Shown here piece after piece: positions 3,558-26,504 of a stretch of 64,000 nucleotides of DNA. The notes beneath the pieces are model-generated. The model was not told the origin of the DNA and did no database searches. It worked only from the letters and a program-made list of their open reading frames with translations. Both the position numbers and the translations under genes were made by a program. The DNA is from Bifidobacterium subtile (GTDB lineage: Bacteria; Actinomycetota; Actinomycetes; Actinomycetales; Bifidobacteriaceae), in the NCBI RefSeq assembly GCF_000741775.1, contig NZ_JGZR01000001.1, forward strand, positions 124,001-188,000, given 5' to 3'. How positions within the stretch are numbered: position 1 is the first letter of the stretch; each line of letters opens with the position of its first letter.

Positions 3558-3565
3558 GCTGCTGA

Positions 3566-3626
3566 GCCGTTAAGCGGGCAATCCGGTGGATTGCCCGTAG
3601 GCGAAGTGAGGCCCCGCCAAGGGGCC
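3566..3626. repeat. Structured element, single copy of the 24995-25292 family
   Basis: Two hairpins in fixed order. The first is GGGCAATCC (3576-3584), loop GGT, GGATTGCCC (3588-3596). The second is GGCCCC (3610-3615), loop GCCAA, GGGGCC (3621-3626). A short outer stem GCC/GGC (3566-3568/3600-3602) encloses the first hairpin. Loop sequences and order match the three tandem copies at 24995, but the stem bases differ in a compensated way. It lies 9 nt after the dapC stop. Confidence 0.75.
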
Positions 3627-3740
3627 GAAGGATGGCGCCCTATATCAGTACCGTCTCGTTAAGCGCACAGACCAAGGTCACTTGCGGTGGTCATCATCAA
3701 TAATCCTCAGTAATCCGTCACAAAAGAGGTTTTATCCTCG

Positions 3741-3943
3741 CGACACTGCCCCTTTTGTGACGCTAAACTCACCTTAGCGTCACGAAAGGGGCGTTAAGGG
3801 CAGTGTTGTCGCTTACTGTGTCTTGTTTGCGACACTTAGCGGGGGTTATTGTCACAAACAAGACAGAGTTCACGAGGGGCGGATGAGACTCTGTCTTGTT
3901 TCTGTCGTTAGGGTCGGCTTGCTGTCATAAACGACACAGAGTC
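3741..3943. repeat. Intergenic palindrome array with 73-bp period
   Basis: GCCCCTTTTGTGACGCTAA (3748-3766) pairs with its near-perfect complement at 3774-3792. An outer arm at 3741-3751 pairs with 3798-3811. Next come four alternating half-sites sharing TGTCTTGTTT or its complement: forward at 3815-3834 and 3888-3907, reverse at 3850-3869 and 3923-3943. Like-oriented cores are 73 bp apart. The array lies between the converging dapC and dinB genes. No coding potential is seen. Confidence 0.75.
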
Positions 3944-9342: not shown

Positions 9343-10175
9343 CGAAGGTCTCCTCGCATATTGAATCGTGTATCGGATTGCGCATCGCCGTTGTCGGCTT
9401 GCGCATCGCTGCGCACGCCATCGTCGGAGAAATCAGGCCAAGGGCGGCGGTGCAGTGCCGAATCCCAGAAGAGGTATTCGTACCGCGTGGCGGTGCGGTA
9501 GGCGCGTCGCATCTCGTCGCGTTCCGCAGGCGAAGCCGATTGCGCGGCAATGTCCACATTGCGGCGAGCCTGTTCCACTGAAGCATGGAACTCTTCGCCG
9601 TCGTATTCGGCGATCCACTGGGCATATGGATGCTCGGGGTTGCGTTCCAGCAATGCCCCGGCCTGATGCGCCAGCCGTTCGGCGACATGCGCATACACCC
9701 AGAAGCAGGGGAGCACGGCTGCGGCACCCACCGGATACGGCGCCTGCGAGGTCTGCGCGACGAGGAACGACGTGTAGCCCAAGCATACCGGCGATGGCAG
9801 CTGGTCGGCCGGCGAAAGCAGATCGGGGCCGTTCGGCAGGACGCTGCGGTGCAGCTGCGTCTCCTCGATGCTGGCTCCGCGCGCGGCCTCGGCCCATGCG
9901 GCCGTCAGCTCGGAAGTGGGGCTTCGAGCGGAGAGCAGGGCGAGCGACTGCGCATATCCGCGCAGGTACAACGTGTCCTGATGCATGTAGAACTGGAAGT
10001 CGGTGGCGTTCAATTCGCCCGATCCCAGCAGCCTCAGGAACTCCATCCTATGAATGGCCGCCAATTCGGGGGCTGTCGACTCCCAAAGCTCATCGGTGAA
10101 GCGGCGGTCGTTCGACGGCGAAGCCGACGTTTGCGGTGATATTGATGATGACTGCGATCGCGAAAACTCGTCCAT
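9339..10175 (-). CDS. tenA: Aminopyrimidine aminohydrolase / thiaminase II (TenA_C type)
   Basis: A 278-aa TenA/THI-4 protein. It has the hallmark CLGYTSFLVAQ and VLPCFWVYAHVAERL, whose C157 corresponds to the nucleophile of Bacillus TenA (Cys135). It would cleave degraded thiamin or 4-amino-5-aminomethyl-2-methylpyrimidine to the hydroxymethyl pyrimidine used in salvage. An N-terminal tail of about 25 residues rich in Ser/Pro precedes the core, and a hydrophilic tail follows residue 255. It is the first gene of a two-gene minus-strand operon with the cysteine-less paralogue. Its ribosome-binding site (AAGGGA) is inside the 3' strand of the TPP riboswitch. Confidence 0.9.
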   Translation of the reverse strand: MDEFSRSQSSSISPQTSASPSNDRRFTDELWESTAPELAAIHRMEFLRLLGSGELNATDFQFYMHQDTLYLRGYAQSLALLSARSPTSELTAAWAEAARGASIEETQLHRSVLPNGPDLLSPADQLPSPVCLGYTSFLVAQTSQAPYPVGAAAVLPCFWVYAHVAERLAHQAGALLERNPEHPYAQWIAEYDGEEFHASVEQARRNVDIAAQSASPAERDEMRRAYRTATRYEYLFWDSALHRRPWPDFSDDGVRSDAQADNGDAQSDTRFNMRGDLR

Positions 10176-10251
10176 GACATCCCTTCGTCAGCATGATCTG
10201 CATCAGGTTCAACGGGTGTGGTCTCAGTCGCCGGCGGCGACACCCCGTGTC
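10176..10251 (-). promoter_or_regulatory. TPP riboswitch (THI element) controlling the tenA pair
   Basis: On the minus strand the region contains the conserved CTGAGA, ACCCGTTGAACCTGATG, CAGATCATGC and CGAAGGGA blocks in the usual THI-box order, after a GGGGTGTC opening. The final AAGGGA is both the switch's 3' strand and the tenA Shine-Dalgarno sequence, so ligand-bound RNA would block translation directly. Confidence 0.93.
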
Positions 10252-10259
10252 GATTGCCG

Positions 10260-24679: not shown

Positions 24680-24724
24680 GTCAAGTCCTCGCTGCCTCAT
24701 CGCGGCAAACCCCAATCCGCCTTC

Positions 24725-24786
24725 AGTCCCCCTGCCGTTGCCGGCGCAGTGTCACCATTGCGCCGGCAACGGCAGGGGGACTCTTA
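24725..24786 (+). terminator. Terminator of adhE
   Basis: A perfect 24-bp stem (24725-24748/24759-24782) with a 10-nt loop, then CTTAT. Confidence 0.85.
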
Positions 24787-24835
24787 TATGCTCTGTTCTG
24801 CTCCGCCCGTACCAGATGTCGGGTTCGGCCGATCA

Positions 24836-24956
24836 GCGTTCGTTTTGTAGCGCTCATGGCGGCCTGTCGCTACACAACGGTCTCTAAGACTCGGTTATCG
24901 TCCGTTTTGTAGCGTCAGCCGCTCGTTAGCGCTACAATCCGGACGCTAAACTTCGT
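24836..24956. repeat. Palindromic array, two 62-bp units
   Basis: Two units, each with CGTTTTGTAGCG and its complement CGCTAC. The cores start at 24841 and 24903 (62-bp period). The array is bounded by AGCGT at the left and GGACGCT at the right. Same family and period as the three-unit array at 10443-10609. Confidence 0.75.
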
Positions 24957-24994
24957 CATGGGTTCGTTTCCTCCAGTCGTCGTAAAGCATTCGA

Positions 24995-25292
24995 GCGCCA
25001 CCGTTATGCGGGCAGTCCGGTGGACTGCCTGTAGGTGGCGCTGAGGCTCCACGAAGGGGACGAAGTGAAGAAAAACAATTCCCGCGACATGCGCCACCGT
25101 TAAACAGGCAACCCGGTGGGTTGCGTGTAGGTGGCGCTGAGACCCCGCTAAGGGGGCGAAGTAAAAAAGACGATTTGCGCGTGACACGCGCCACCGTGAA
25201 GCGGGCAACCCTGTGGGTTGCTCGTAGGTGGCGCCGAGTTTCCGCTAAGGAAACGAGGTAGAGGGAAACGATTCCCGCGACACGCGGGAATC
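24995..25292. repeat. Three tandem copies of a co-varying structured element
   Basis: Copies start at 24995, 25091 and 25188 (period 96-97 bp). Each has outer stem GCGCCACC/GGTGGCGC enclosing hairpin 1 with a 3-nt loop (GGCAGTCC/GGACTGCC, GCAACCC/GGGTTGC, GCAACCC/GGGTTGC). Hairpin 2 follows with loop ACGAA, GCTAA or GCTAA (CTCC/GGGG, CCCC/GGGG, GTTTCC/GGAAAC). Stem bases change together while loops stay similar, so structure is being kept. A closing hairpin GATTCCCGCG/CGCGGGAATC ends the array (25270-25292). It lies about 240 bp upstream of rpsJ. A fourth copy is at 3566. A long minus-strand reading frame across the array is not a credible gene. Confidence 0.85.
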
Positions 25293-25527
25293 CCTTGTAA
25301 TACCCCCTCGATGCTTTAATAGAGAAGTTGCCTGTTTTGGGCTCGCATATTGGAATCAAAAAAGCGAGTGCGGCGGCGGGTTCGTGGTGTGATGCACATC
25401 GTGAACGTCGCGTGCTGCACACTGATGCGTTGGACCGCGGGGTCATACCCGGGGGTCCTGTGCGCCGGTGTCCTTGAAGAGCAGGCTGGTAAACAGTAAA
25501 ACGAATCGCTAGAAAGGGCGGACGGCA
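25293..25527 (+). other. Leader region of the S10 operon
   Basis: No gene. It should hold the superoperon promoter and leader, but no promoter stands out clearly. GAAAGGGCGG at about 25513 is the rpsJ ribosome-binding site. Confidence 0.4.
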
Positions 25528-25836
25528 ATGGCGGGACAGAAAATCCGCATCAGGCTTAAGTCCTATGACCATGAGGTCATCGACCAATCGGCGAAGAAAA
25601 TCGTCGAGACGGTTACGAACGCGGGCGCCACTGTGGTGGGTCCGGTTCCTCTGCCGACCGAGAAGAACGTGTTCTGCGTGATCCGCTCTCCTCATAAGTA
25701 CAAGGATTCTCGCGAGCATTTCGAGATGCGCACGCATAAGCGCCTCATCGACATCGTGGACCCCACGCCCAAGGCTGTGGACTCCCTGATGCACATCGAT
25801 CTGCCTGCAGATGTCAATATCGAGATCAAGCTGTAG
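25528..25836 (+). CDS. rpsJ: 30S ribosomal protein S10
   Basis: 102 aa, usual length. It is the first gene of the S10-spc-alpha superoperon. S10 sits in the 30S head and also acts with NusB in transcription antitermination. Recognisable by [14 protein letters not shown] at the start, [19 protein letters not shown] (about 38-56) and [17 protein letters not shown]. rplC follows after 17 nt with a strong GAGGAGG. Confidence 0.98.
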
Positions 25837-25853
25837 GGGAGGAGGAAACCGCA

Positions 25854-26504
25854 ATGTCGCAAAAGGCAAATCGCAACGCGCTACTGGGCAAGAAGCTCGG
25901 CATGTCGCAGGTCTGGGATGAGAACGGCTTCTTCGTCCCTGTCACGCTCGTAGACGTCTCCACCAACGTGGTCACGACCGTCAAGACCGAGGAAAGCGAC
26001 GGCTACAACGCCGTGCAACTCGGCTACGGCCAGATCGACCCGACCAAGGTGACCAAGCCTCTCGCAGGCCACTTCGCCAAGGCCGGCGTCACGCCGCGTC
26101 GCCACCTCGCCGAGGTGCGCACCGAGAACGCCGCCGAGTTCGAGCCCGGCCAGGAGCTGAGCGCCGAGGTCTTCGGCGAAGGCGCCGTGGTGGATGTCAC
26201 CGGCACCACCAAGGGCAAGGGCTTCGCGGGCACCATCAAGCGTTGGGGCTTCAAGTCCTATCGTCGTACCCACGGCTCGCACAAAAACGAGCGTCGCCCC
26301 GGTTCCGTCGGCGCGTGCGCTACTCCGAGCCGCATCCTCAAGGGCAAGCGCATGGCTGGCCGCATGGGCCATGTCACCTCCACCGTGCAGAACCTCACCG
26401 TGGTTTCCGCGGATGTGGAGAGCGGCATCATCGCGCTCAAGGGTGCCGTTCCCGGCCCCAAGGGTGCCATCGTGCTTGTCCGTTCCGCAGTGAAGGGAGC
26501 CTGA
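25854..26504 (+). CDS. rplC: 50S ribosomal protein L3
   Basis: 216 aa. L3 helps initiate 50S assembly and reaches toward the peptidyl transferase centre with a long loop. The family signature is around KGKGFAGTIKRWGF, then the GSHKNERRPGSVGACATPSR stretch. Start AATG 25854 has GGAGGAGG 11 nt upstream. rplD begins 4 nt after the stop. Confidence 0.98.
   Translation: MSQKANRNALLGKKLGMSQVWDENGFFVPVTLVDVSTNVVTTVKTEESDGYNAVQLGYGQIDPTKVTKPLAGHFAKAGVTPRRHLAEVRTENAAEFEPGQELSAEVFGEGAVVDVTGTTKGKGFAGTIKRWGFKSYRRTHGSHKNERRPGSVGACATPSRILKGKRMAGRMGHVTSTVQNLTVVSADVESGIIALKGAVPGPKGAIVLVRSAVKGA

Follow-up and report, generated by a model that had tools for sequence, protein, structure and literature searches.

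The window analysed here, a 64,000-nucleotide stretch of the Bifidobacterium subtile genome (2.79 Mb in 27 contigs; G000), carries four copies of a short folded element. Three of them lie in direct orientation on the forward strand between adhE and rpsJ (24995-25066, 25091-25162 and 25188-25259), with starts spaced 96 and 97 nt apart, as the initial annotation had reported. A fourth, which the same annotation had placed after dapC, was found at 3561-3631 (+), starting 3 bases past the dapC stop codon. A covariance model built from these four copies (R1) scored them at 93.6, 95.8, 94.5 and 86.3 bits, respectively, and 42 of the 72 columns in their alignment are invariant. The location upstream of rpsJ given for the three direct copies is accurate and can be stated more exactly: they sit between a terminator-like hairpin with 27-nt arms 3′ of adhE (24725-24782, +) and a block whose sequence related species conserve in front of rpsJ; the copies thus lie 5′ of this block. 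The sequence GCGACACGC, containing the core CGACACGC, is located before rpsJ at 25277-25285 (+), and degenerate repeats behind copies 1 and 2 (25084-25089 and 25181-25188) are a flank duplication. The core CGACACGC occurred 150-420 nt 5′ of rpsJ in 28 out of 30 loci, whether the element was present or not (the exceptions, judged by eye, being L140 with a reversed occurrence only and L151 with a variant), and may form part of an S10 operon promoter or operator. Gene names used here (adhE, rpsJ, dapC, rnhA, dnaX, gpsA, hemW and smc) are those of the best NCBIfam matches; adhE, rpsJ and hemW passed the curated cut-off, and the other genes were partial pieces or fell below it.

Minus-strand open frames across the rpsJ-side copies, flagged initially as misannotation, do exist (24946-25869 and 24915-25208), and their non-genic status is presumed, in the case of 24946-25869 because the frame runs antisense over rpsJ. 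The window also contains large imperfect inverted repeats at 24835-24947 and 3720-3790 that carry TTTTGTAGCG or TTTTGTGACG. Within the 41 own-genome sequences examined, TTTTGTAGCG occurred 10 times (in four sequences) and TTTTGTGACG three times (in two), and these repeats are possibly another dispersed hairpin family.

The element is about 72 nt long and comprises an outer stem with a tandem G.A, a first hairpin with a triloop, and a second hairpin with an RCNAA-like loop. In copy 1, these correspond to 24995-25002/25034-25041, 25008-25018/25022-25032 and a weak 25045-25050/25056-25061, respectively (all +). Every stem pair quoted in the initial annotation is present in the sequence, although the architecture it described as shared holds only in part. 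Full pairing of the outer stem is limited to the three rpsJ-side copies, whereas the dapC copy and most relatives have the tandem G.A mismatch, and hairpin 2 is a feature of the element but is weak in copy 1, where the minimum-energy fold of 24985-25082 forms without it. Folds were stronger than those of dinucleotide shuffles on both strands (z of -2.7 to -5.2 on the plus strand and -3.3 to -3.5 on the minus strand, four stretches each).

Covariation was assessed in two sets of copies. In the first, a MAFFT alignment of 56 copies from the own genome (55 distinct rows), 89.8% of cells were paired and 228 cells were changed on both sides, compared with a mean of 65 in the shuffles. Of five covariation measures, four lay above all 500 shuffles, and the fifth, the number of pairs changed on both sides (18), was equalled or exceeded in 12 of the 500. 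Sliding the stem partners against each other reduced pairing to 28-40%. The second set, consisting of 139 matches at other loci (124 distinct rows), was aligned to the model, and hence biased towards it, and yielded 427 two-sided cells against a shuffle mean of 107, with all five measures exceeding the 500 shuffles. The tandem G.A within the outer stem was kept in 112 and 103 of these 124 rows, and in 107 of them hairpin 1 has a fixed G.U pair at its base. Certain loop and linker letters are conserved too, as is a GTAG inside the structure (element columns 37-40). The fold has been kept across the family by compensatory stem changes, and the selection on structure first proposed from the four window copies is upheld by these changes, by covariation above shuffles, and by the retention of non-canonical pairs. 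Wobble pairs were asymmetric as well. With the fixed wobble excluded, other loci had 53 G.T versus 23 A.C on the plus strand, and the own genome had 48 G.U versus 15 A.C after 46 fixed pairs were subtracted. Together with the kept non-canonical pairs, this bias in the sequences argues for folding of the plus strand, whether as RNA or as single-stranded DNA.

Copies are numerous in the own genome. A consensus search located 32 places at E ≤10, R1 gave at least 56 matches at E ≤2.5e-8 and at least 89 at E ≤10, and R2, a model based on the 56 own-genome copies, gave at least 83 at E ≤0.01, where in the R1 and R2 searches the best 150 of approximately 1,700 to 1,800 first-look candidates were scored (R2: 150 of 1694). 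Running the four-copy model against bifidobacterial genomes, a check put forward in the initial annotation, recovered further covarying homologues. Of 36 additional genomes from the genus, 26 contained copies at E ≤1e-4, the highest count being at least 84; genomes lacking matches include G006-G009, G014 and G022. Across a family-wide sample, matches were obtained in 48 out of 121 genomes and four out of 16 genera (one of the four based on a single weak match, E 7.9e-6), while none of 22 genomes from other families had a match at E ≤1e-4. An exact pattern of one subtype retrieved 55 stretches from the species collection, every one titled Bifidobacterium. Phage or plasmid carriage was rejected, as the consensus search of phage and plasmid records returned no match and the exact-pattern search of viral contigs none. 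Comparison with Rfam, also suggested initially, did not match the element to any family: only TPP and tRNA were detected at gathering score over the whole window, and nothing convincing at E ≤10 over 24700-25500. The TPP riboswitch lies at 10163-10257 (-; 68.1 bits).

Presence and absence of the element vary between species at one and the same gene. Between adhE and rpsJ it occurs in four of 30 loci, the own locus included (L131 gave a weak match only, E 0.24), and upstream of rnhA in seven of 30, again including the own (that of G084 being partial). The near relative G112 has a plain rnhA without the element, and the sequence before its rnhA start resembles, by eye, that before the displaced start in G000. 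Downstream of dapC, the element is found in two of 16 loci (G000 and G084) and is absent in G112; the G000 and G084 copies have an identical hairpin 1 and a hairpin 2 that differs with its complementarity retained. Host genes are unrelated (rnhA, dnaX, gpsA, hemW, smc, dapC and rpsJ), and orientations among 35 intergenic loci out of 47 own loci, as counted with a crude ORF finder, were >E> 12, >E< 11, <E< 9 and <E> 3. According to the same crude ORF finder, the 5′ end of the element overlaps the end of the upstream frame at L003, L004, L006, L017, L023, L039 and the dapC locus of G084 (L194), and the TGA within the element’s GCTGAG may be the stop codon of the upstream frame at such loci.

To characterize the insertion sites, 160 nt upstream of each copy were compared with 350 nt downstream, with elements masked and a cut-off score of 16 (the 99th percentile of mismatched pairs). 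Long flanking direct repeats were present at 47 out of 136 loci with complete flanks (after three duplicate copies were removed and neighbours collapsed), as opposed to 6 out of 447 shifted controls, in a sample biased by the fetching of loci as good matches and by several orthologues of one insertion. The upstream half of the repeat ended within 3 nt of the element’s 5′ end at 38 of the 47 loci (19 target groups by crude clustering) and in none of the six controls (one ended at 4 nt). Within the own genome, eight of 43 loci had a long flanking repeat, three of which end at the element. Repeats ranged from about 19 to 139 nt in length, and duplicated targets include the starts of rnhA, dnaX, gpsA and hemW as well as the smc 3′ end in antisense orientation. 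In nine hand-chosen duplicated coding pairs, 40 codon differences were synonymous versus four non-synonymous, one of the latter being the start codon itself (ATG/TTG). Hence, either both copies of the gene end derive from working genes, or the displaced copy is still translated or converted. Plain target-site duplication followed by decay of the displaced copy was rejected, as it would not give mainly synonymous divergence; target duplication has to be supplemented by gene conversion, by ongoing translation or by recombination of alleles that had diverged. At rnhA in five genomes, displaced and functional starts showed 0 to 7 differences over 48 sites, compared with 5 to 13 between genomes, which suggests partial concerted change.

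At rnhA, a single open frame runs through the displaced start, element and spacer of all six full copies, and its stop overlaps the rnhA start codon. This arrangement probably stems from one ancestral insertion in which later length changes kept the frame. Judging from the open frame, the element at rnhA now seems to belong to a leader that is translated and overlaps the start of the gene. The hemW copy is in another reading frame than the rnhA leader. The idea that elements are generally translated through was discarded: an automatic count of 11, 2 and 1 in the three phases was not treated as significant because the 11 include several rnhA orthologues and other cases were misread (L047 is probably non-coding, the frame taken for L032:2001 was incorrect, and gpsA was classed as reverse coding by mistake).

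Elements are also nested, with 10 of 60 own copies immediately preceded by another copy’s 5′ half, whose end lies in the hairpin 1 triloop (L002, L008, L011, L015, L020, L022, L028, L030, L034 and L037, by our own reading). Flanks complementary to each other (score ≥12) were found for 16 of 180 copies versus one of 1,488 mismatched flank pairs, and for four of 60 copies in the own genome; the majority of copies show none. Some elements are situated inside long inverted repeats, at L007:2454-2624 (perfect 29-nt arms), L044 and L045 (similar arms) and L121, and these repeats look like another family.

Based on the dispersed copies, the absence of the element from the same loci in relatives, its nesting and the frequently duplicated flanking target, it is probable that the element represents a new family of mobile repeats of the Bifidobacteriaceae that are short, dispersed, non-autonomous and conserved in structure. 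As far as our literature searches reach, the family is undescribed: the repeat was not named in the best-ranked titles and abstract openings of the bifidobacterial literature (few of them subscription papers), and a term search of a study on small RNAs of B. animalis (PMC4338058) returned no “repeat”, “palindrom” or “hairpin”. Ordinary transposition is a poor fit because terminal inverted repeats and a fixed target duplication are both absent. The 5′ end (GCTGAGCC) and the reverse-complemented 3′ end (CCTTCGCG) do not, by eye, form terminal inverted repeats of the MITE type, and the variable flanking repeats differ from the short target duplication of fixed length typical of such elements. Instead, the plus strand, folded as RNA or single-stranded DNA, may be recognised by a trans-acting host or mobile-element activity that would insert it at gene ends and hairpins. 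Tandem arrays, such as that before rpsJ, could then arise by unequal crossing-over of the duplicated flanks, which may also delete the element. In transcribed sites, the element would fold within the mRNA. Among protein families sought as potential movers, Y1 transposases (PF01797) were detected in one of 37 genomes (G017), IS110 in four, RT in one and TnpB-type proteins in nine (eight above cut-off), none of them in G000. Partner systems of the IS110, RT and TnpB types were rejected on the grounds that none of these proteins was found in G000.

The initial annotation had suggested an undescribed RNA class, of which the folded single strand and the lack of an Rfam match hold; a free RNA class as such is not supported, given the same dispersal, locus absence, nesting and target duplication. 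In its broader form, a multi-copy structured RNA class, cis-acting or acting as a small RNA in, for example, the control of translation or mRNA decay, is unlikely although it has the most in its favour among the alternatives. It would account for the strong covariation with retained non-canonical pairs, the plus-strand excess of G.U over A.C in both sets of copies, and the open rnhA leader frame. However, folded single-stranded DNA would likewise give a G.U excess, orientation is not constant among the intergenic own loci, neighbouring genes are unrelated, and most loci examined lack the element at the corresponding gene. Riboswitch-type features were sought in the form of a fixed orientation and a recurring gene class, and mixed orientations and unrelated genes were found.

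A more elaborate form of the mobile-repeat reading is doubtful. Here, an enzyme would be guided by structure to insert the folded strand at hairpins or gene ends and would supply a gene end anew beyond the element, the spacer would be complementary to the target and tie the element to it, and some insertions would have turned into translated leaders of housekeeping genes, rnhA among them. There is only a slim chance that the element serves as a guide, of RNA or DNA, with a 3′ spacer complementary to the insertion region that could direct a programmable nuclease or recombinase. The rnhA spacer complements codons around the insertion point in seven genomes (15 to 19 of 20 letters), and complements were also observed at dnaX (15 nt in L090 and L097) and gpsA (about 9 nt, by eye). 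Nonetheless, the own-genome complementarity tops its row in four of seven rnhA rows, and the spacer-gene covariation there is suggestive only; in addition, the distance from element to complement is variable, most copies have no such complement, and searches of G000 detected none of the TnpB, IS110, Y1 and RT families. Least probable of all are simple DNA palindromes with arms held complementary by template-switch correction, an established DNA process that would leave covariation uninformative on function and that agrees with flanks complementary beyond chance, but would erase the tandem G.A and the fixed G.U, both of which persist alongside conserved loop and linker letters.

Bifidobacteria rank among the major commensals of the gut. 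Sequence turnover under a constant fold, seen in dozens of copies in each genome, makes the repeat a natural experiment in structure selection. Duplicated gene ends that have diverged synonymously, with known transposases missing, pose the concrete question of what moves the repeat. Its recognition would also benefit annotation, as open frames cross the copies and the starts of neighbouring genes are easily mis-called.

Among known systems, a REP/RAYT origin was rejected, as the Y1 gene is missing in 36 of 37 genomes and GTAG does not stand at the element’s 5′ end ahead of a palindrome. REP sequences, as described in the parts of PMC3686654 drawn on here, are likewise many-copy hairpin repeats with a conserved GTAG, but RAYT systems have GT(A/G)G directly before the palindrome, whereas here GTAG lies between hairpin 1 and the outer stem. 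With MITEs, going by excerpts of PMC10969869 and PMC3049150, the element shares being small, non-coding, non-autonomous, multi-copy and folded, and differs in having neither terminal inverted repeats nor a parent IS among the families tested. Rickettsia palindromic elements, in the portion of PMC10969869 that covers them, may share the reading frame of a host gene, comparable to the rnhA leader, although here the gene start is duplicated, the host protein is uninterrupted, the phylum is another and one locus is clear. The BOX, RUP and SPRITE repeats of Streptococcus pneumoniae, as portrayed in sections of PMC3049150 and PMC10969869, are also short, strongly folded, dispersed, clustered and mutually inserting, with tandem modules (boxA-boxB(n)-boxC in BOX), and BOX-encoded reading frames are reported in the same sections. 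These belong to another phylum, and the bifidobacterial element differs in that its stems change sequence without losing their pairing and in that long duplications of the flank stop at its 5′ boundary. Judged by the features tested, the element is neither a REP nor a MITE, and its behaviour resembles that of BOX or Rickettsia palindromic elements.
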